Positions 21,116 through 30,962 of a DNA stretch of 40,156 bases are shown in pieces. Below the pieces are notes generated by a model. It had not been told where the DNA came from, ran no database searches, and was given only the letters and a program-made list of their open reading frames with translations. Numbering within the stretch: position 1 is the stretch's first letter; every line of letters begins with the position of its first letter. Location: assembly GCA_003646815.1 (NCBI GenBank), contig QMLQ01000002.1:1-40156 (forward strand). Direction: 5' to 3'. This DNA is from Deltaproteobacteria bacterium. GTDB lineage: Bacteria > Desulfobacterota > DSM-4660 > Desulfatiglandales > Desulfatiglandaceae. A program made the translations under genes and the position numbers.

Positions 21116-22195
21116 CTATTTCCCTTCTTTGATGTAGACATCCCGCTTGGGGTAGGGAATTTCAATTCCCTCCTGGGTGAATCGTTCCTTTACCCGGTCT
21201 GATATGGCGGAAATGGTGTCCATTCGTTTCCTGGGATCCCTGATCCAAACCCTTACCTCCAGGTTCACCGCCGAATCCCCGAAGCTTTTCACCACCACCT
21301 TGGGTCCAGGGTCCCGCAGGACCCATTCCAGCTCGAGGCTGATACTGATTATAGTTTCCTTGGCCTTCTGGATATCAGCGTCATAGGCCACTCCTATGGG
21401 AATTCTCACCCTGATTTCCTCGGTGATGGTGGTATAGTTGATGATGTCCCGCCGCATGATCTCATTGTTGGGAATCACGATCACAATATTATCGGTGGTG
21501 CGAATCTTGGTAGCCCGAAGGCCGATGTCCAGGACATCGCCCCAGGTAGCAGAGTTGGCTGGTGCCGACCACACCTCGATGCGGTCACCCACCTCGAACG
21601 GCCGGTCAATAATCAGCAGGACCCCTGCGATCAGGTTTGACAGAGTGTCCTTTGCTGCAAAGCCGATGGCAATACCGGCGACCCCTGCGCCCGCAATGAA
21701 GGGCATGATGTTGAGCCCGAGCACGTCCAGGGCCAGAATGCCGCCCGTGGTGTAGATGATAACTCCGGAAAACTTTTTGGAAAGATCGAGGATCACATCA
21801 TCCACCTGGGTATCTGTCCTCTTGGCCAGTCTTTCTTCAAGGAACGGGATGATGCGACTGACAACAGACTGGATAAGCGAGGTGACCAGGAGAACCAGGC
21901 CTGCAAAAAAAATCTTTTCAGCCCAGGGCGCATGGATCAGTCGGAGGGCTGAAGCACCGAGAAGGATAAGGATGCAGTAATGTCCTCCCTTTTTTATCAC
22001 CAGAAAAATTTTTCCCTTTTTCCCGAGGATCGGGTGATTTTGATACCGTTTTTCAATACGGGCGACGACCCGATTGAAGACGGCCCAGGCCAGAGCGGCA
22101 ATCAGGACAATGATACCTCCGTAAATTCCTTCCTTCACAAAGGGTTGAGGATTTGTGAAAATGGTCCCTATTATTCGGTCCAGGAGTTCCTTCAT
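21116..22195 (-). CDS. MscS-family mechanosensitive ion channel
   Basis: A 359-aa small-conductance mechanosensitive channel that releases solutes during hypo-osmotic shock. Membrane helices lie at about 20-40, 70-85 and 95-115. The pore helix and start of the beta domain read GAGVAGIAIGFAAKDTLSNL and IIDRPFEVGDRIEV. The beta and alpha-beta domains follow, with PNNEIMRRDIINYT and a C-terminal VYIKEGK. The start at 22195 has AGAGGAA upstream; a longer frame to 22294 would cover a plus-strand promoter and is unlikely. It fits with the neighbouring antiporters and the compatible-solute operon. Confidence 0.9.
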   Translation of the reverse strand: MKELLDRIIGTIFTNPQPFVKEGIYGGIIVLIAALAWAVFNRVVARIEKRYQNHPILGKKGKIFLVIKKGGHYCILILLGASALRLIHAPWAEKIFFAGLVLLVTSLIQSVVSRIIPFLEERLAKRTDTQVDDVILDLSKKFSGVIIYTTGGILALDVLGLNIMPFIAGAGVAGIAIGFAAKDTLSNLIAGVLLIIDRPFEVGDRIEVWSAPANSATWGDVLDIGLRATKIRTTDNIVIVIPNNEIMRRDIINYTTITEEIRVRIPIGVAYDADIQKAKETIISISLELEWVLRDPGPKVVVKSFGDSAVNLEVRVWIRDPRKRMDTISAISDRVKERFTQEGIEIPYPKRDVYIKEGK

Positions 22196-22287
22196 GTCGA
22201 ATTCCTCTTCAAAAGTTGATGCTGCAGCCCCACGTGGAATGGCATTAAAGCATACACCTGAATCCAAATCAACGCCCATCTTCCCAC

Positions 22288-22317
22288 TTGACACGCTTTC
22301 TTCTGAGATGGTATAAG
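22288..22317 (+). promoter_or_regulatory. sigma-70 promoter of the antiporter leader
   Basis: TTGACA (22288-22293) and TATAAG (22312-22317) are separated by 18 nt. This is one of the best promoters in the window. Transcription would start near 22324, about 235 nt before the antiporter ATG. Confidence 0.6.
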
Positions 22318-22557: not shown

Positions 22558-24042
22558 ATGGCGATCAGTATCGCGCTCATTATTGTTCTTGGATTGTGTG
22601 CCGACTATCTTTTCCGGAGGGTAAAACTGCCCGGTCTTGTGGGGATGCTTTTTGTGGGCATTCTCTGCGGTCCCTATGTTCTTAACCTCATTTCCCCGGA
22701 CATGATGAAGGTGTCAGGTGATTTCAGGAAAATAGCCCTCATTGTCATCCTGCTCAGGGCGGGCTTTGAACTCAGACGTGACACCCTGAACCGGATCGGG
22801 CGGGCCGCCATTACCATGAGCTGTGTGCCGGCACTCTTCGAGATTGCAGGAATCATCCTGCTCGCTCCCAAACTGCTCCATATTTCCATTCTCGAGGCGG
22901 CCATTCTCGGGGCCATCCTCTCCGCCGTCTCCCCGGCAGTGGTCGTGCCGCTGATGATTGATTTCATAGACAGGGGCCGGGGTGCCAGGAAAGGGATCCC
23001 CACTCTCATCCTTGCGGCATCATCTGTTGATGACGTGTTCGTCATTGTCCTGTTTACCATTTTCATGGGGATGTACGGTGGCGGTGCCGTCAACCTCTGG
23101 GCCAAGCTGGGAGAGATACCTGTTTCTATCGGGCTCGGGATCTTGATGGGGCTCATCCCGGGATATTTTCTCTATTGGCTTTTTACCCGGTATGACTGGC
23201 ATCCCCCGCGGAGGACACTGGTGGTTCTGGGAACCGCCATCATCCTTACCTGGCTGGAAAAGATCCTGGAGCCATGGGTGCCGGTAGCAAGCCTTCTGGG
23301 AGTCATGGCCATAGGGTTTATCATCCTGGAAAAGTCAGAGGCAATTGCCCACCTTGTCTCCCAGAAACTGAAAAAGCTGTGGGTCTTCGCGGAACTGCTC
23401 CTTTTTGTCCTGGTGGCTGCCCAAGTGAATATTCACGTGGTCTGGAAAGCAGGGCTGGCCGGTACCATCGTGATCCTTGTGGGACTGGTCTTTCGGAGTG
23501 TCGGAACATATATTGCCCTCTTCGGGGCGGGCCTTGACTGGAAAGAAAAACTTTTCTGCGTGGTGGCATACATCCCGAAAGCAACAGTCCAGGCTGCCAT
23601 CGGCGCTGTCCCCCTGGCAGCAGGCGTCGCCTCGGGCGATGTCATCCTGGCGGTGGCGGTCCTTTCCATCCTCCTTACGGCCCCCCTGGGGGCAATTGGC
23701 ATTATGATTTTCGGCGAACGCATCCTGGACCATGGGGAGCGTTCCGCCTATCGTTTCAAGGAGCTTAGAGACCGGCTGAATCTTCCCCATGTGGGTGAAC
23801 GGGTGAGGAGCAAGGATTTCGGGACAATCTGGAAAATCATTGAAGAAAAGGAGATCTGGATAGAAACCATTGGGGAAGGAGGCGCTCCCGGAGAGAACAA
23901 GGATCTCCGCCCCGCCATTCATCTGCGTTACTGGAAGGAAAATCCGGGGGCTGGCAAGGGAAAAGGGAAAACCCTTGTTTACCGCTACAGCCAGCAGGAC
24001 CCTTCTTTTCATGACCACTGGGAGGTCCTCTATGACTGGTGA
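22558..24042 (+). CDS. cation:proton antiporter (CPA-type, NhaP/Kef-like)
   Basis: A 494-aa inner-membrane protein with about 12 helices exchanging Na+ or K+ for H+. The first helices hold LPGLVGMLFVGILCGPY, the discontinuous helix SAVSPAVVVPLM lies at about 122-133 and the ion-site pair Asp158-Asp159 in ASSVDDVFVIVLF is intact. The last 100 residues (from about 395) are a soluble tail. AAAGGAG precedes the ATG. Upstream is a promoter-leader-terminator arrangement; downstream genes encode a PTS EIIA and a PII-like protein that may regulate it. The exact cation is unknown. Confidence 0.9.
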   Translation: MAISIALIIVLGLCADYLFRRVKLPGLVGMLFVGILCGPYVLNLISPDMMKVSGDFRKIALIVILLRAGFELRRDTLNRIGRAAITMSCVPALFEIAGIILLAPKLLHISILEAAILGAILSAVSPAVVVPLMIDFIDRGRGARKGIPTLILAASSVDDVFVIVLFTIFMGMYGGGAVNLWAKLGEIPVSIGLGILMGLIPGYFLYWLFTRYDWHPPRRTLVVLGTAIILTWLEKILEPWVPVASLLGVMAIGFIILEKSEAIAHLVSQKLKKLWVFAELLLFVLVAAQVNIHVVWKAGLAGTIVILVGLVFRSVGTYIALFGAGLDWKEKLFCVVAYIPKATVQAAIGAVPLAAGVASGDVILAVAVLSILLTAPLGAIGIMIFGERILDHGERSAYRFKELRDRLNLPHVGERVRSKDFGTIWKIIEEKEIWIETIGEGGAPGENKDLRPAIHLRYWKENPGAGKGKGKTLVYRYSQQDPSFHDHWEVLYDW

Positions 24043-24096: not shown

Positions 24097-24567
24097 ATGA
24101 AGATCTGGAATTGCCTGCATACGAAGCGTATCTTCCTTGATGTGCCGCTCCCCGACAAGGATGCCGTACTCCAGTTCGTTGCAGAGGCATTTGCCAGCCG
24201 CGGAATTGTAAAAGACGCAGACAGCCTGTACGACGGGTTGAAGGCACGAGAAGATACCATGAGCACGGGAATCGGCAGGGGCATCGGGCTCCCCCACGCC
24301 ATGAGCAATGATACGCATGACGCCGCCGTACTCCTGGTAAGATGTTCAGAACCGGTGGATTTTGAGAGTCTCGATGCGGTTCCCGTAAAAGTAATAGTCG
24401 CCCTAGTGGTGCCGGAAGGCAAACCTGACCTCCACCTGCAGATGCTTGCGAGTCTTGCCAGACTCTGCCAGTACCCGGGATTTTTCAAGACAGTGCAGGA
24501 CGCCAAAGATCCCAAGGCCCTGTTCGATTCGATCAAGCAACTGGAAGAAACCATTTCCTTCCATTGA
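24097..24567 (+). CDS. PTS EIIA-family protein (PtsN-like)
   Basis: A 156-aa EIIA of the fructose/nitrogen class. The phosphorylated His67 lies in GIGRGIGLPHA, followed by VDFESLDAVPVKVIVALVVPEG. No sugar-permease domain is present, so it is more likely a regulatory EIIA (PtsN type), a class known to bind potassium channels and kinases in other bacteria. There is no ribosome binding site before the ATG, and a promoter places the start of transcription at the ATG. It lies 54 nt after an antiporter and 44 nt before a PII-like gene, which suggests control of ion transport by phosphorylation state. Confidence 0.88.
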   Translation: MKIWNCLHTKRIFLDVPLPDKDAVLQFVAEAFASRGIVKDADSLYDGLKAREDTMSTGIGRGIGLPHAMSNDTHDAAVLLVRCSEPVDFESLDAVPVKVIVALVVPEGKPDLHLQMLASLARLCQYPGFFKTVQDAKDPKALFDSIKQLEETISFH

Positions 24568-24983: not shown

Positions 24984-26351
24984 TTACGGCGCCTCTTTTC
25001 CCGCCTTTGCCTCTCCAACGAGTTCCAGGACCGCCTTGAAGGTTACGGGTCCTATGAGCTGGTTCAGGGTAATCACCGCCAGCACGATGGTATTAAGGTA
25101 CGTTCCAATTCCCTGGAACTGACGTTCAGCAAGCTGGGCCAGGCCGATGGCTACGCCTGCCTGCGTGAGATAGGCCATCCACGCCATCCGGTTCTGGTAT
25201 GGCGGATCTCTCATAATTGTTCCGGCAAGCCAGGTGGCCAGGAAGATTCCTGCGCACCTGGCAATGGCAATGGAAGAGGCAATGGGCCAGGTCATCTTGA
25301 GGGCCTCCAGATCTAACGAGGCGCCTGCCAGTGAAAAGAAAAGGACAAAGATGGGCAACGAGATGCGCTCCAGGCTTTCGAGAAATCGAAGACCCTCTTG
25401 ATCGAAATTGCGGACAGTGAATCCCGCGCTCATGCATACCAGCAATGGCTCCAGGTGAAGAGAGATGGCAAACTGTGTTTGTATGACCTGATCCAGCCAC
25501 AAAGACCCTTTGACAATCCCGAAGGCAATGAGGAGGAGAAAAAGGGGAAGGTCATGCCCCACTTTCTTGATATAAAATGCGATACCTTTTCCGAAAAGGA
25601 AGCCGACTGCAAGGGAAACAATCATTTCACCCGAGACTGCACTGACGGCATACGCATGAATGCCGGAGCCGGACACCAGCAATACATTGATCAATGCCAG
25701 CACCATAGTAAAAAGCATTATGATGAGGACATCCATGGCAACCGTGATCCCTAAGACTGTCTCTGTAAACACGCCCGAAGCACGGCTTTCACTGATGACA
25801 GCAATCGCTGACGAAGGAGATCGGGCCACCGCGATAACACCAAGGAGCGACGCGAGAGCCGTAACCTGGGCACCGGACATGGTTCGGGTAACCTGAAAAA
25901 ACGATGCCCCCACCAGGACGAAACCAAAAACAAGGCCGAAGACAAAGATGGTGAGAAATGAGATGTTCAATGCTATGGCCTTCAGACGGTTTCGCAAGAA
26001 ATCCACGTGCAGAGATGCGCCGGCAGTCAAAGCGATAAAACTGAGGGCAAGATCATCTACCACGCGCAGCTTCAAAACCGTCTCGTTCGTAAGCAGACCG
26101 GTTACATGAGGTCCGACAATCATCCCAGCAAAAATATACCCGCTTATCAGTGGAATTCTAGCCCTGCGGAGCATTGTTGCTGTTCCGTAGGCCAGCAGCA
26201 GCAAGAACCCCAGGAAAAAGGTACTGAGGCCACCCTGTTGCCATTCAGTCTCTATCCGCGTGGTCCTAATCCACAGGGCCAGCAGAACAAGGATGGTAAG
26301 GAGGAAAACCGGTTCCATCCATCTCTTTTGCGTTTTTTCATGCCAATTCAC
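24984..26351 (-). CDS. cation:proton antiporter, catalytic-type subunit
   Basis: A 455-aa CPA2-like inner-membrane protein with about 13 helices. The inverted-repeat core is visible: YIFAGMIVGPHV near 72-83, VARSPSSAIAVISE near 175-188, and ion-site Asp207 in GITVAMDVLIIMLF. There is no cytosolic TrkA-N domain. The start is GTG at 26351, overlapping the stop of the upstream antiporter gene in a GTGA, with GAGGAA nine nucleotides before it. The coupling suggests that the two products work together. It converges on the PII-like gene. Confidence 0.85.
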   Translation of the reverse strand: MNWHEKTQKRWMEPVFLLTILVLLALWIRTTRIETEWQQGGLSTFFLGFLLLLAYGTATMLRRARIPLISGYIFAGMIVGPHVTGLLTNETVLKLRVVDDLALSFIALTAGASLHVDFLRNRLKAIALNISFLTIFVFGLVFGFVLVGASFFQVTRTMSGAQVTALASLLGVIAVARSPSSAIAVISESRASGVFTETVLGITVAMDVLIIMLFTMVLALINVLLVSGSGIHAYAVSAVSGEMIVSLAVGFLFGKGIAFYIKKVGHDLPLFLLLIAFGIVKGSLWLDQVIQTQFAISLHLEPLLVCMSAGFTVRNFDQEGLRFLESLERISLPIFVLFFSLAGASLDLEALKMTWPIASSIAIARCAGIFLATWLAGTIMRDPPYQNRMAWMAYLTQAGVAIGLAQLAERQFQGIGTYLNTIVLAVITLNQLIGPVTFKAVLELVGEAKAGKEAP

Positions 26352-27550
26352 GGTGTTGCGTTCCTCAAAAGCCGTTCAGTCAAAAACAGCCCCATGATGT
26401 CGTTGAGCAAGACCCCGATCAAGACCAGGCTCACGACCCAGGACGTTCCACTGGATGAAAAACCCCGCTGAAAATCCAGGAGCATGGCCAATGAAAGTCC
26501 CCCCTGGTGGAGAAGGCCCAACCCGGAAAGGCCGGGCAACCGTTCTCCTGCAGTTCCAGCTATACGGGTTGCTATGGCACCTGCTCCTACCTTTACAATT
26601 CCCCGGTACACGCAATAGGCCACCGCAAGCACCGGGACCCAGATCGAATACAACCGCCAGTTGGCCCCCAGCAAAACGAGGAGGAGAACGTAGGCAGGCT
26701 TTTCAACGGTAATCAATATCTGGTAGAGACGCTCTTTTTCCCGGGACATGTTCACAAGAAAAAGGCCTAGGAGAAATGTGAAGAAGAGCGGGCTCATGCC
26801 GAGTACCGAAGACAGGCCGCTTCCCAGGGTCACCGTTGACAGAAGGAGAAGGATCAATTCACTTTCCTGTCTCGGTTCCTTGAGAAAAAAGGCAAGAAGG
26901 AGCACAAGACCCAGACATGAACCGAGCAGAATAATAAACCCGTTTCCAACCTCGCTCAACCACCAGAGATTCGCAGCCGACACCTTCCCAAAAGAAAAGA
27001 ACAATCCGAAGCTAACAAGGGGAACCAACGGTCCGATACTGGAAATACATCTCAGCAACAGCACCAGTTTCCCAAATTTGGGTCCATGTCCAGAAGCTAC
27101 CAGGGCAATCCCGGTTTGGGCCGTACATGCCCCAACAGCCCCCAGCACCAGGGCATCGCCCATATGAACAACATTGCCTGCTCCGGGAAAAAGGCACGCC
27201 GTCAATTGTATTACCCCGAAAATCAGGACAAATGACAAAGTCCCCTCAGTGATGGCGGCGAAAACATAGCCCCGAGGGAATCGCCGAAGCTTTGCCAATT
27301 CGAATTGAAAGCCGAAAATGAGGCCGATCCACCCAAGCAGAAATGCGTGGAGGAAAAAAAGCTCTTTTTGTGCCTCCCTGTCCAGGATATTAAGAAACCA
27401 CGGCCCCAGGAGGAGCCCCAGGAAAAGGAATTCGGAACCGGTGATAGAGAAGGGGCGGGCATAAAACGGCATCCTGAAACGGCGAAAAGTCAAATGATAC
27501 CCGCTGAATGCCAGAAAAACAATGAGCAGGAATGCAAAGGCTAGCTTCAT
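26348..27550 (-). CDS. antiporter-like membrane protein lacking the ion-site aspartate
   Basis: A 400-aa polytopic membrane protein of the same general fold as its neighbour: helices throughout, GACTAQTGIALVASGHG at the position of the discontinuous helix and LLHQGGLSLAMLLD near the C-terminus. Where the partner has GITVAMDV, this one reads RCISSIGPLV (about 167-176), with no acidic residue, so ion exchange by itself is doubtful. The ATG at 27550 is chosen over a TTG two codons upstream; both follow an inverted repeat that places a GGTAG in a hairpin loop. It is coupled to the next antiporter by GTGA and is divergent from tetR. A regulatory or heterodimer subunit is likely. Confidence 0.75.
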   Translation of the reverse strand: MKLAFAFLLIVFLAFSGYHLTFRRFRMPFYARPFSITGSEFLFLGLLLGPWFLNILDREAQKELFFLHAFLLGWIGLIFGFQFELAKLRRFPRGYVFAAITEGTLSFVLIFGVIQLTACLFPGAGNVVHMGDALVLGAVGACTAQTGIALVASGHGPKFGKLVLLLRCISSIGPLVPLVSFGLFFSFGKVSAANLWWLSEVGNGFIILLGSCLGLVLLLAFFLKEPRQESELILLLLSTVTLGSGLSSVLGMSPLFFTFLLGLFLVNMSREKERLYQILITVEKPAYVLLLVLLGANWRLYSIWVPVLAVAYCVYRGIVKVGAGAIATRIAGTAGERLPGLSGLGLLHQGGLSLAMLLDFQRGFSSSGTSWVVSLVLIGVLLNDIMGLFLTERLLRNATP

Positions 27551-27627: not shown

Positions 27628-27660
27628 TTGACATTCGAACGTTCGTTTGATACGAACGTT
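27628..27660 (+). promoter_or_regulatory. TetR-type operator and promoter for the efflux operon
   Basis: AACGTTCGT (27638-27646) and ACGAACGTT (27652-27660) form a perfect 9-bp inverted repeat with a 5-nt centre. TTGACA at 27628-27633 is the likely -35, with a weak -10 (TACGAA, 27651-27656) inside the operator. Binding would block the promoter, consistent with autorepression by the adjacent TetR protein. A shorter palindrome, CGAACGTTCG, overlaps at 27636-27645. Confidence 0.75.
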
Positions 27661-27683
27661 TGCAATACAACCGGAGGCATTTT

Positions 27684-28334
27684 ATGAATGTGAACCACAA
27701 GGCAGAACATACCCGTGATCGGATACTCGACGAAGCGGAAATCCTTTTTGCCCGCAAGGGGTACCGGGCAGTCAGTATCCGTGAGATCATTCAGGCGGCC
27801 CACTGCAACCTGGCAGCCGTAAACTACCACTTCGGACAAAAAAGAAACCTCTACCTGGAGGTATTCCGCTCCCGCTGGATCCCACGGGCAAAAAGAGTGC
27901 AGAAAGCATTTCGGGAATCCCTGGACAGAGAATCATCCCCTTCACTCGATACCATCGTTCGACTCCTTACCGAGGCATTTATCCAGGGACCATTGAGTGA
28001 AGAAGAACGCCACCTCCATCATCAGCTAATGGCCAGGGAACAGGCGGAGCCGTCCGAGGCCCTGGAGCTGATTGCCAGGGAGGTCATGCAGCCTTTTTTC
28101 AAAGAAATTTCTGCGCTTTTCCAACAGGCTTTACCGGTGGATGTAGAAGAGGGGACCTTGCGCCTATTCCTTCTCAGCATGTTCTCGCAAATCCTCTACT
28201 TCAGTTTCGCACGGGCCGCCGTCACCAGGATTACCGGCCGGGAATATGACCGAGTCTTCAAGGCGCGACTCTCCGATCATATCGTCAAATTTTCCCTGCA
28301 TGGTCTTGAAGCAGTCAAGGGAGAAAAAAAATGA
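27684..28334 (+). CDS. TetR/AcrR-family transcriptional regulator
   Basis: A 216-aa repressor. The N-terminal helix-turn-helix is typical: TRDRILDEAEILFARKGYRAVS, EIIQAAHCNLAAVNYHFGQK, NLYLEVF. The variable C-terminal domain would bind an efflux substrate. The ATG at 27684 has GGAGG eight nucleotides upstream; the earlier in-frame ATG at 27660 lies in the operator. It is the first gene of the efflux operon (4-nt overlap with the outer-membrane gene) and is divergent from the antiporter pair, so it may also affect that promoter. Confidence 0.92.
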   Translation: MNVNHKAEHTRDRILDEAEILFARKGYRAVSIREIIQAAHCNLAAVNYHFGQKRNLYLEVFRSRWIPRAKRVQKAFRESLDRESSPSLDTIVRLLTEAFIQGPLSEEERHLHHQLMAREQAEPSEALELIAREVMQPFFKEISALFQQALPVDVEEGTLRLFLLSMFSQILYFSFARAAVTRITGREYDRVFKARLSDHIVKFSLHGLEAVKGEKK

Positions 28335-29782
28335 AGCAACAGGTTTCAATTGCATTCATCTTGTCCCTTGCGCTCCTGTTCTCGGCCGGATGCATGAAAA
28401 TGGGTCCTGACTTCAAACGACCATCCCCGGGGGTGCAAATTCCTGCTGCATTTCAGCATGATACAACCGGCGGCAATCATGCCCTCTTGCAGGAACCATG
28501 GTGGCGGACATACGGAAACCCTGAGCTTAATTCCCTCGTGGACCAGGCCCTCAAGAACAATTGGGATATCAGGCAGGCAGCTGCCAGGGTCATGGAAGTA
28601 CGCTCCCAGTTTCTCCAGACAAAAGCTGATCGCTTTCCCTCCCTGAATCTCCAGGCCACAGCCCAACGCCAGCGTCAGACCGTTCATATCCCGGTGCCGG
28701 TCTTCCAGGGAACAACAATTCAGATCCAGAATCAGCAAAAAAGGGAGACCACCGATGCATTCAGTCTCTCCCTGCCCCTTTCGTACGAGCTGGACCTGTG
28801 GGGCCGCCTTGCAAGAGCTGAAGAAAGCGCCAGGGCATCTCTTCTGGAGGCCCAGGAAAACCGCCGCGCCATCGCACAGGCCGTTGTGGCTGAAACCGTT
28901 ACCCTTTACTTGAATAGTGAGGCCATAGAGCGGCGTATCCAGGTCCTCCGGGAAAGCATTGAGAGCTATCGCAAGAGCCTGAGACTGGCCCAGTTCAGAT
29001 ATGAACATGGTCTGACCTCCATCCTTGACGTGAGACAGGCACGAAGGATCCTCGCCCAAGCCGAATCATCCCTGCCCGTGCTCCTGCAGGAACTCGGAAC
29101 CGCTCAGCAGAAAATGGCCGTTTTACTTGGTCATTATCCAAGAACCCGGCCGCCCAGAACACATCAATCCGATTATTTCAAAGAACTTCCTCCTGTTCCG
29201 CCGGGGCTTCCCTCTGAACTCCTGCTTCGCAGACCGGATATCATGGCAGCCGAGGCCAGACTTCGAGCCCTCAATGCCCAGGTGGGCCAGGCTCGAGCCA
29301 ACCGTTTTCCCCATATCACCCTGACGGCAAGCTTTGGATATGCCAGCGATGAACTGGCACATCTCCTGCTTCCAGAAAGCAGCCTTTGGAACATGGCCGC
29401 CGGGCTGTTTCAGCCCCTGTTCGATGCGGGAAAACTCAAGGCCCTGGAAAAGGTCGCGCAGGCCAGGTATCGACAGGGACTTGCGGCCTATGCCAAGACC
29501 CTCTTGAATGCCTTTTCAGAAGTGGAAAACGGACTCCTGACTCGCCGGGAACAGCTTGAGCGCAGGAAACGGGTCCTCGTGCTCCTCGAGGAAGCGCGGG
29601 CGACCCAAGTTGTTGCCGAGGGGCGATATAGACGCGGGCTGGTGAACTACATCACTGTCCTTGATGCACAGCAGGCCAGATTTCAGGCGGAAGACAGCCT
29701 GATACTCGTTGATCTGGCTTTACTCACGAACCGGGTTACCCTCTACCGGGCCCTGGGAGGAGGTTGGGATAGAAATGGGTAA
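28331..29782 (+). CDS. RND efflux outer-membrane lipoprotein (NodT family)
   Basis: A 483-aa TolC-like channel of the NodT/OprM type. The N-terminus is a lipoprotein signal with lipobox LLFSAGC (Cys21), then MGPDFKRP. Two outer-membrane efflux repeats follow, with LSYELDLWGRLARAEESARA and, in the second half, LRRPDIMAAEARLRALNAQVGQARANRFP. It forms the exit duct of the efflux pump. The ATG overlaps the tetR stop and the end overlaps the adaptor gene by 8 nt. Confidence 0.94.
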   Translation: MKQQVSIAFILSLALLFSAGCMKMGPDFKRPSPGVQIPAAFQHDTTGGNHALLQEPWWRTYGNPELNSLVDQALKNNWDIRQAAARVMEVRSQFLQTKADRFPSLNLQATAQRQRQTVHIPVPVFQGTTIQIQNQQKRETTDAFSLSLPLSYELDLWGRLARAEESARASLLEAQENRRAIAQAVVAETVTLYLNSEAIERRIQVLRESIESYRKSLRLAQFRYEHGLTSILDVRQARRILAQAESSLPVLLQELGTAQQKMAVLLGHYPRTRPPRTHQSDYFKELPPVPPGLPSELLLRRPDIMAAEARLRALNAQVGQARANRFPHITLTASFGYASDELAHLLLPESSLWNMAAGLFQPLFDAGKLKALEKVAQARYRQGLAAYAKTLLNAFSEVENGLLTRREQLERRKRVLVLLEEARATQVVAEGRYRRGLVNYITVLDAQQARFQAEDSLILVDLALLTNRVTLYRALGGGWDRNG

Positions 29783-30962
29783 ATGGAAGAAACGATTATT
29801 ACAGATCATTGTCACCCTTGCGGTCCTGGCACTCGGGGTGTTCGGTATGCAGAAAATCACTGCCAGCAGGCAGGAAGTAAAACGGAGAAAACCACCCGCC
29901 CTTGTTCCGACCGTGCGGGTCATGAAAATCCAAACAAAATCGCACCGTGTAATCGTTGAAGGAGAGGGAACGGTTCGTCCCCTGGATGAGATCAGGCTGA
30001 TCCCCCAGGTGGGAGGAAAAGTCATTTTCGTTTCTCCCGCCCTTGTAAATGGCGGACAATTTTCCAAGGGGGATATTCTCCTGCGTATCGACCCGGTTGA
30101 TTACCAGCTTGCACTGGCGCTTGCGGAGGCCAAGGTAAAAGACGGAGAGAGCCGGCTCCAGATTGCCCGGGAAGAATCGGCTGCCGCAAAAGAGGAATGG
30201 CGCATCAATCATCCGGCCGGCTCAAAGAAAAACCTGGACCCGCCCCCGCTGGTGGCAAAGGAACCGCAGCTCGCCGCAGCCCGGGCCATGCTGGAAGCCT
30301 ACAGGGCCGATCTCAAAAAGGCCCGGTTGAACCTCGAGCGAACAACACTCAACGCCCCTTTTGACGGACGGGTCATCCAGGAAAATGTCGGAGCAGGCCA
30401 GTTTGTATCACCGGGGCAGGTCCTCGCCACCCTTTACTCCACCGAAGCAGCAGAGGTTGTTGTCCCGCTCGAAGACCCGGATACCTTCTGGTTCCATATC
30501 CCGGGGGTCAGTCCTGGTCAAGGCCCAGGCGCCTCGGTGGAAGTTGTTGCTCAAATAACCGGGAGGACTGTTTCCTTTGAAGGAAGAGTCGTACGTGCTG
30601 AAGGCCAGATAGACCCGAAAACAAGGATGATTCCGGTTGTCATCAGGGTGGAAAAACCTTACATCAAAAGGCCTCCCCTGGCTGTCGGCCTTTTCGTAAC
30701 CGTACGCATAAAAGGAAAGCTTCTCCCTGAATCTGTTCTCATCCCGAGGGCATCCATTCACCAGGACAACATGGTCTGGGTCATGGACAGGGATGGTCAT
30801 CTGCGTTTTCGGAAGGTTAACGTGGCCCGGTTTCAGGGGACCCGGGCATTAGTGCGCAAGGGACTCAAGACCGGAGACCGCATTGTCATCAGTCCCCTGG
30901 AATCCGTTACCGACGGCATGACTGTTCGGACGGTGGACGCGGAGGAGCATGATCTGTCATGA
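29775..30962 (+). CDS. RND efflux periplasmic adaptor (membrane fusion protein)
   Basis: A 395-aa adaptor joining the inner-membrane pump to the outer-membrane channel. It has one N-terminal membrane anchor (LLQIIVTLAVLALGVFGM), a lipoyl/barrel-sandwich domain with GGKVIFVSPALVNGGQFSKG, a helical hairpin, NAPFDGRVIQENVGAGQFV, and a C-terminal beta-barrel and MP domain. The start at 29775 (MGKWKK) is taken because GGAGGAGG lies upstream and the charged start leads into the anchor; an ATG at 29709 would lie deep in the previous gene. Its stop overlaps the pump gene by 4 nt. Confidence 0.92.
   Translation: MGKWKKRLLQIIVTLAVLALGVFGMQKITASRQEVKRRKPPALVPTVRVMKIQTKSHRVIVEGEGTVRPLDEIRLIPQVGGKVIFVSPALVNGGQFSKGDILLRIDPVDYQLALALAEAKVKDGESRLQIAREESAAAKEEWRINHPAGSKKNLDPPPLVAKEPQLAAARAMLEAYRADLKKARLNLERTTLNAPFDGRVIQENVGAGQFVSPGQVLATLYSTEAAEVVVPLEDPDTFWFHIPGVSPGQGPGASVEVVAQITGRTVSFEGRVVRAEGQIDPKTRMIPVVIRVEKPYIKRPPLAVGLFVTVRIKGKLLPESVLIPRASIHQDNMVWVMDRDGHLRFRKVNVARFQGTRALVRKGLKTGDRIVISPLESVTDGMTVRTVDAEEHDLS

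Follow-up and report, generated by a model that had tools for sequence, protein, structure and literature searches.

A candidate heteromeric CPA2-type antiporter in Desulfobacterota, with an ion site lost in one of two paralogous subunits

Antiporter pairs and their closest described counterparts

In cation/proton antiporters of the CPA fold, the scaffold half of a subunit serves dimerisation, and the CPA antiporters of known structure are, to our knowledge, all homodimers. NapA is one such homodimer, with Asp156-Asp157 in each chain. The subject of this paper is a window of 40,156 nucleotides from a deltaproteobacterium of the Desulfatiglandaceae (assembly GCA_003646815.1, contig QMLQ01000002.1, positions 1 to 40,156), in which two overlapping genes encode paralogous antiporter-like proteins, here called B and A. 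With modest confidence, we regard B and A as the subunits of a heteromeric cation/proton antiporter of CPA2 type: A would do the transport, with B as a pseudo-antiporter at its side, and a neighbouring EIIA and a PII-like protein would probably exert control. More tentatively, and short of what we would call probable, the system may be an obligate hetero-oligomeric CPA2 antiporter, with stepwise ion-site loss in one protomer and a single elevator per dimer, on which a phosphorelay EIIA and a PII protein dedicated to it would act in trans.

The fold of NapA (PDB 5bz2, 4bwz) is recovered by profile for both B and A, and its Asp-Asp plus Lys arrangement is present in some B proteins and in most single-gene relatives. 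Unlike NapA, which is encoded by one gene, the chains here are paralogous, and B is mostly without the second or both Asp residues. The closest single-chain relatives of A that we found are CPA2 antiporters to which TrkA_N, TrkA_C and PTS_EIIA_2 domains are fused (of the ten proteins L113-L122, five were scanned). The four that were placed in a tree share the X-Asp site of A; whereas they carry cytosolic regulatory domains on a single chain, the present locus has a separate EIIA, a separate PII-like protein and a second membrane subunit. PII-fold proteins are complexed with membrane transporters in AmtB-GlnK and NrtBCD-PII (PDB 2ns1 and 8wm7); these transporter families are unrelated to CPA. 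Two paired homologous genes also make up UmpAB of Halomonas zhaodongensis, in which both are needed for full Na+/H+ antiport and a hetero-dimer has been reported from co-immunoprecipitation (PMC5484666). The UmpAB proteins differ from the present pair in belonging to the DUF1538 family, with seven putative transmembrane segments each, and no dead ion site is mentioned in the accessible portion of that report; neither A nor B matched DUF1538 in a Pfam scan with E values up to 10. Control of a cation/proton antiporter by an EIIA-type protein is known from the Escherichia coli CPA1 K+/H+ antiporter YcgO, which is bound and inhibited by unphosphorylated PtsN (PMC11808508). YcgO differs in being a CPA1 protein whose own cytosolic region includes putative RCK and CorC parts, and the accessible portion of the source mentions no B-type partner. 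A search of the open-access literature returned no report of such a pair, of a heteromeric CPA or of PII-linked antiporters, which is not proof of absence.

The ion site of protein B and its history

The site of window B reads I-S-S-I-G173-P174-L, and that of window A reads V-A-M-D207-V. When B, A and single-gene relatives are aligned together, Asp207 of A and Pro174 of B share one column, with Gly173 of B in the column before. Profile comparisons place the site in the same way: a 16-protein B profile aligns with NapA (5bz2) at E 6.4e-8 over most of the NapA length, and its 'dd' columns fall on the NapA 'IDD', that is, on D156/D157, whereas an A profile (E 1.2e-5 against the same structure) sets the Asp of A on D157; the NapA residue numbers were counted by hand off the printed profile alignments. 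The first-pass annotation, which had pointed to the missing acid in B opposite Asp207, is borne out by both kinds of alignment, and no acidic residue occurs in window B between positions 161 and 185 when the ion site is placed by sequence-profile rather than structure-based alignment. At the level of aligned sequence, then, it is confirmed that window B has lost its ion site at both NapA Asp positions.

Residue numbering can be translated between NhaA and NapA. In E. coli NhaA two aspartates are essential, the first of which pairs with Lys300 (PMC5427271). The corresponding Asp156-Lys305 pair of the NapA-like electrogenic subtype is incomplete in window B, in which Lys320, at the K305 position, is kept and the Asp (present in 33/41 B proteins) is replaced by Gly173. 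Across the B family Lys320 is conserved in 39/41 members, and Arg316 and Glu283 in 41/41; Arg316 shares its alignment column with Arg365 of A, which has no Lys in the column of Lys320.

Searches for B covered 61, 85, 395, 146 and 146 genomes in overlapping samples, all of one phylum except for two contigs from a genome-collection scan, the B and A of which score the same as the proteins of genomes G044 and G438. They yielded 41 distinct B proteins including that of the window, separated by a clear gap in score (at least 270 bits, against at most 162 for the rest). The site pairs are Asp-Gly in 26, Asp-Asp in six, Asn-Asp, Asn-Gly and Gly-Gly in two each, and Gly-Pro (the window), Asp-Ser and Gly-Ser in one each. 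The first position is acidic in 33/41, the NapA D157 position is acidic in 8/41 and lost in 33/41, and six of the 41, the window protein among them, are acid-free at both. The figures count sequences rather than events, and some rows are close kin (e.g., L035, L036 and L039). By contrast with B, the A partners keep the ion-site Asp in 38/38 aligned cases, a count from which three cases are absent: L031, whose A is broken, L039, where A is missing, and G473, whose A is on another contig. In one genome (G425, L031/L102), B and A are each split across two frames, reflecting either a broken locus or an assembly error. On these alignments, B and A are two separate families, and window B is the end point of a site-loss series rather than a unique lesion.

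A tree of 39 B proteins, leaving out L031 (broken frame) and L039 (contig end), accounts for loss of the second Asp by one change and for the acid-free state by at least four; it is weak inside, with 16/36 inner branches open and the placement of the window not settled. A combined tree, which took in 14 B proteins (out of 40 outside the window), their A partners and four of the ten fused relatives, with rows cut to the antiporter part, joins all B in one clade and A with the RCK/EIIA-fused relatives in another (SH-like approximate likelihood ratio support of 100 for each). As 21/30 single-gene relatives have Asp-Asp, B probably started out with this pair, although the combined tree has no outside root. 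The fused relatives L113, L114, L117 and L121 are nested among the A proteins, though weakly (support 86-89), a position that would imply loss of B together with gain of fused regulators, or the reverse. Separately, a group of single-gene CPA proteins of about 560-575 amino acids (L004-L009 and L079) has Asn-Asn at the site and no acid at either position; CBS domains were found in L005, its sole member scanned.

B is retained even where its site looks dead. The acid-free Gly-Gly proteins L070 and L072, from separate genomes, are under purifying selection, with a ratio of nonsynonymous to synonymous substitution (dN/dS) of 0.091 for B and 0.101 for A, and five other B pairs gave 0.10-0.24 (by a simple counting method, with dS about 1 in two of the pairs). 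In the 31 pairs in which B has lost the second Asp, the conservation of B relative to A is -0.149 in core helices and -0.001 in scaffold helices, a contrast as low in 20/924 relabellings and 27/386 circular shifts, whereas the seven Asp-keeping pairs have no contrast (core -0.103, scaffold -0.102). This supports, without deciding, the notion that the core of lost-Asp B proteins has been relaxed relative to the scaffold.

Linkage, divergent operons and neighbouring genes

Among 395 genomes of the phylum, B was found in 18 and A in 18; 17 have both, and the lone B (G278) and the lone A (G255) both lie at contig ends. Cut-offs were set at score gaps (at least 287 bits for B and at least 518 for A), with at most four candidates per genome scored. 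Frequent occurrence of B on its own, which the first-pass annotation had named as evidence against its reading, was not observed in these searches. Within one order, 26/26 B genomes among 146 also have A, and in the 27th A genome, G505, which is without B, A begins 144 bases from a contig end; ten other genomes of the order have weaker A relatives (307-406 bits), which are RCK-type single chains. A lies co-directionally downstream of B at 37/40 non-window loci, with a spacing of -11 to +39 nt in 36/37 and +313 nt in one, and the genes overlap in 29/37. At the remaining three loci, A is convergent (L066), on another contig (L064, G473) or missing at a contig end (L039); in G473 (L108 and L124), B is directly beside PII-like and EIIA genes with A missing between, so the pair is separated there. 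Over 38 loci, the pairwise identities of B and A correlate at 0.95, the outcome expected under co-inheritance, with B diverging further than A in 663/703 comparisons. In the window itself, the reading frames of B and A and their GTGA overlap are as the first-pass annotation had them (Table 1), and the overlap suggests that the two are translationally coupled. The genus mate of the window genome has no close B match, and a search of viral contigs found no B relative. A family mate, G014, holds a decayed B-A locus (L003 and L015) consisting of two B pieces of 41-47% identity in different frames and an A fragment; the pair does therefore occur in the window's family.

Two genomes first appeared to have A without B. 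This was ruled out, as the operons of G286 and G153, found via weaker A matches, both hold a very divergent B (B') in the order EIIA, PII-like, B', A'. The B' proteins have 352 (G286) and 349 amino acids (G153), and the B profile matches them in two blocks, 7-128 and 204-317 in G286 and 7-135 and 201-380 in G153, with no match across the ion-site region in between. In these lineages the ion-site part of B appears to be dispensable, while the flanking blocks and the partnership with A persist; the site of A' is still Lys-Asp. A MAFFT alignment gives Met-Pro and Ile-Pro as the ion-site residues of B', in a part where it is unreliable. In G153 (L150) the second block runs through the Lys320 region, with the Lys aligned and the Arg not, and in G286 the match ends short of it.

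Wide neighbourhoods were compared in 32 regions (L050, L093-L112, L125-L132, the window, L149 and L150). These are the window, the two divergent loci and 29 of the 40 B loci outside the window; the remaining loci were compared with short flanks. EIIA and PII-like genes are both present in 19 regions, EIIA alone in one, PII-like alone in four and neither in eight, so that one or both occur near 24/32 (EIIA 20/32, PII-like 23/32); in one PII-like-only case the gene is incomplete, running off the end of the stretch at 5 kb from A. They are convergent with B-A, as in the window, or co-directional with it (L050, L093, L094, L103, L104, L149 and L150). The likely phospho-acceptor of EIIA is His67 in IGLPHA (counted by hand), a His present in 17/17 aligned proteins, and the window genome encodes HPr and an EI-type protein. 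It has three EIIA-2 matches and one PII-like copy found. The TrkA domains in 5/5 and PTS_EIIA_2 in 4/5 of the scanned single-chain A relatives, of which there are ten, tie EIIA to this type of antiporter. These larger relatives, with open frames of 640-890 amino acids, were considered as A-B fusions and rejected; in 10/10 the B profile matched no second segment.

The 113-residue protein is predicted to have the beta-alpha-beta-beta-alpha-beta fold of PII proteins. PF00543 matches 6/14 members of its family, and the window copy alone has no Pfam match. An AlphaFold2 model from the window protein and one relative (mean predicted local distance difference test score, pLDDT, 67.7) has a PII protein as its best Foldseek match (E 1.2e-4) among 48 matches at E of 0.001 or below, which include PDB 2ns1 and 8wm7. 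The model has a low-confidence stretch at residues 36-58, where PII proteins have the T-loop.

Protein A matches PF00999 (E 4.3e-19, residues 52-443), as do the 16/16 A family members scanned; window B has no significant Pfam match of its own, and 9/16 scanned B family members match PF00999. A further antiporter, protein C, has an Asp-Asp site and is very divergent from A and B. It was considered as a third subunit and rejected, having matched only A proteins among the clustered neighbours, in which no separate C homologue was present; its branch in the combined tree is very long and unplaced, and C is not a conserved member of the module. The genes of C, EIIA-2 and the 113-residue protein run on the plus strand toward A. 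On one side the locus is flanked by a minus-strand gene at 21116-22294, which we take to encode an MscS-like channel. On the other, a TetR/CecR-type regulator (Pfam scan) opens a plus-strand group at 27660-30962, the later genes of which presumably resemble outer-membrane efflux and RND adaptor genes.

Table 1. Features of the B-A locus and its vicinity (positions in the window; aa, amino acids)
Feature	Position	Strand	Basis
Protein B, CPA-fold candidate pseudo-antiporter subunit, 400 aa	26348..27550	-	open reading frame, ATG at 27550, stop at 26348
Protein A, predicted CPA2-type antiporter subunit, 455 aa	24984..26351	-	open reading frame, GTG at 26351, stop at 24984
Overlap of B stop and A start, 4 nt, GTGA	26348..26351	-	sequence
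B codons Gly173-Pro174, at NapA Asp156/Asp157 positions, ion site lost	27029..27034	-	alignments
A codon Asp207, at NapA Asp157 position	25731..25733	-	alignments
PTS EIIA-2 protein, 156 aa, convergent with B-A	24097..24567	+	PF00359, E 2e-34
PII-like signalling protein, 113 aa	24612..24953	+	PF00543 in family members; AlphaFold2 model
Protein C, further CPA antiporter, upstream of EIIA	22558..24042	+	PF00999, E 1.2e-47

Weighing the heteromer and its alternatives

In the mechanism that we propose, A and B would be dedicated paralogous subunits of one monovalent cation/proton antiporter, each made of a scaffold half and a mobile, ion-carrying core half. A, which keeps the core aspartate, is predicted to carry out cation/proton exchange. 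B would descend from a working NapA-like antiporter with Asp-Asp plus Lys; a single loss of the second Asp, in the common ancestor of most of the family, would have been followed by loss of the first in several lineages, that of the window included. B may have been retained because A needs a dimer partner, leaving one working elevator per dimer. The activity of this elevator would most likely be set by EIIA, phosphorylated via EI/HPr, and by the PII-like nucleotide sensor, acting in trans as the fused RCK and EIIA domains may do in the single-chain relatives of A. The parts of this proposal differ in standing. Gene linkage and spacing, the loss of the site with its likely history, purifying selection on an acid-free B pair and the families of the neighbouring genes are observed here, and the remaining parts are inferred. 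That window B does not itself transport cations is very likely, and physical contact between B and A in a heterodimer is likely; regulation of the antiporter by EIIA and PII is reasonably likely, and K+ rather than Na+ is, by analogy with the RCK/EIIA relatives, somewhat the better candidate for the main cation. Two paralogues that occur together and are coupled argue against the notion that one gene, forming a homodimer, would suffice.

Several observations weigh against this proposal or temper it. A dead B is not family-wide, as eight B proteins keep Asp-Asp or Asn-Asp. Gene linkage by itself is no proof of contact between B and A, A is convergent with B in one genome and on a different contig in another, and A does exist without B in its RCK/EIIA-fused relatives. 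The contrast between core and scaffold is weaker when all 38 pairs are taken together (48/924 relabellings and 67/386 shifts, a moderate significance), the scaffold segment 253-268 opposes the trend (-0.26 in lost-Asp pairs), and the helix limits were assigned by us from the NapA alignment and the topology of NhaA. In the B' of G153, what is lost is the ion-site part of the core and not the whole core. An AlphaFold2 monomer model of B, from three sequences, reached a pLDDT of 40 and was discarded. Finally, eight of the 32 regions are without EIIA or PII-like genes; three of these end within 1.5 kb of A, and the other five are not explained by a nearby contig end.

The first alternative, which we consider unlikely, is that B is a working transporter with another substrate or mechanism, for example for an anion or a neutral solute, separate from A or alongside it. 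The purifying selection on the acid-free pair would be expected of such a protein, and the kept Arg316, Lys320 and Glu283 could serve an anion site; Lys320 also has an aligned Lys counterpart in the extreme B protein of L150. On the other hand, an intact B without A in the genome was met only once, at a contig end, and the site pair varies among DG, DS, NG, GG, GP and GS, unlike a retuned site; moreover, the two extreme B proteins lack a profile-recognised ion-site region, and in L150 the Arg is off its aligned place.

A second alternative, also unlikely and slightly less favoured than the first, is that B is a regulatory or sensing subunit that docks PII-like protein and EIIA, or senses ions, and gates A, without itself being required as a scaffold. 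PII-like and EIIA genes do lie near the pair, and A is without the cytosolic regulatory domain that its five scanned single-chain relatives have. As for B, complete proteins measure 349-431 amino acids and in the main family the B profile spans them almost end to end, indicating that no cytosolic domain has been added; eight of the 32 regions have B and A with no EIIA or PII gene nearby, and B, measured against A, is better conserved in the segments assigned to the scaffold. The first-pass annotation had proposed a heterodimer with a regulatory subunit. Its heteromer with one dead site is supported by the indirect evidence of linkage and site loss, whereas a regulatory role for B does not stand out, as a structural dimer partner fits at least as well; the adjacent EIIA and PII-like proteins, absent from that annotation, are likelier regulators than B.

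It is very improbable that the missing Asp reflects a mistake in sequencing or assembly, or that the gene has begun to decay in this lineage. The window lies in a draft genome of 410 contigs with 7.7% contamination, and a family relative has a decayed copy, but the frame of window B is intact across 400 codons and five more B proteins are acid-free, including L070 and L072 in separate genomes with dN/dS of 0.09. Least probable of all is cation exchange by B through an acid elsewhere in its sequence, as the nearest window-specific candidate, Asp132 at the start of the preceding core helix, falls outside the site in the alignment and has no counterpart in the remaining acid-free B proteins (an acid is found there in 1/41).

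Seen as a heteromer, the B-A family offers a natural gradation, in which two possible sites (Asp-Asp in B and X-Asp in A) give way to a half-lost and then a fully lost site in one subunit, and which addresses the question of why an elevator transporter with a full core in each chain stays dimeric. The gradation would allow a direct test: loss of the second core should be tolerated, and loss of the scaffold should not. If the proposal is true, cation/proton exchange in these bacteria would follow both the phosphorylation state and the adenylate state of the cell, and the repeated presence of EIIA and PII-like genes beside the pair suggests that both signalling families have a new target here.

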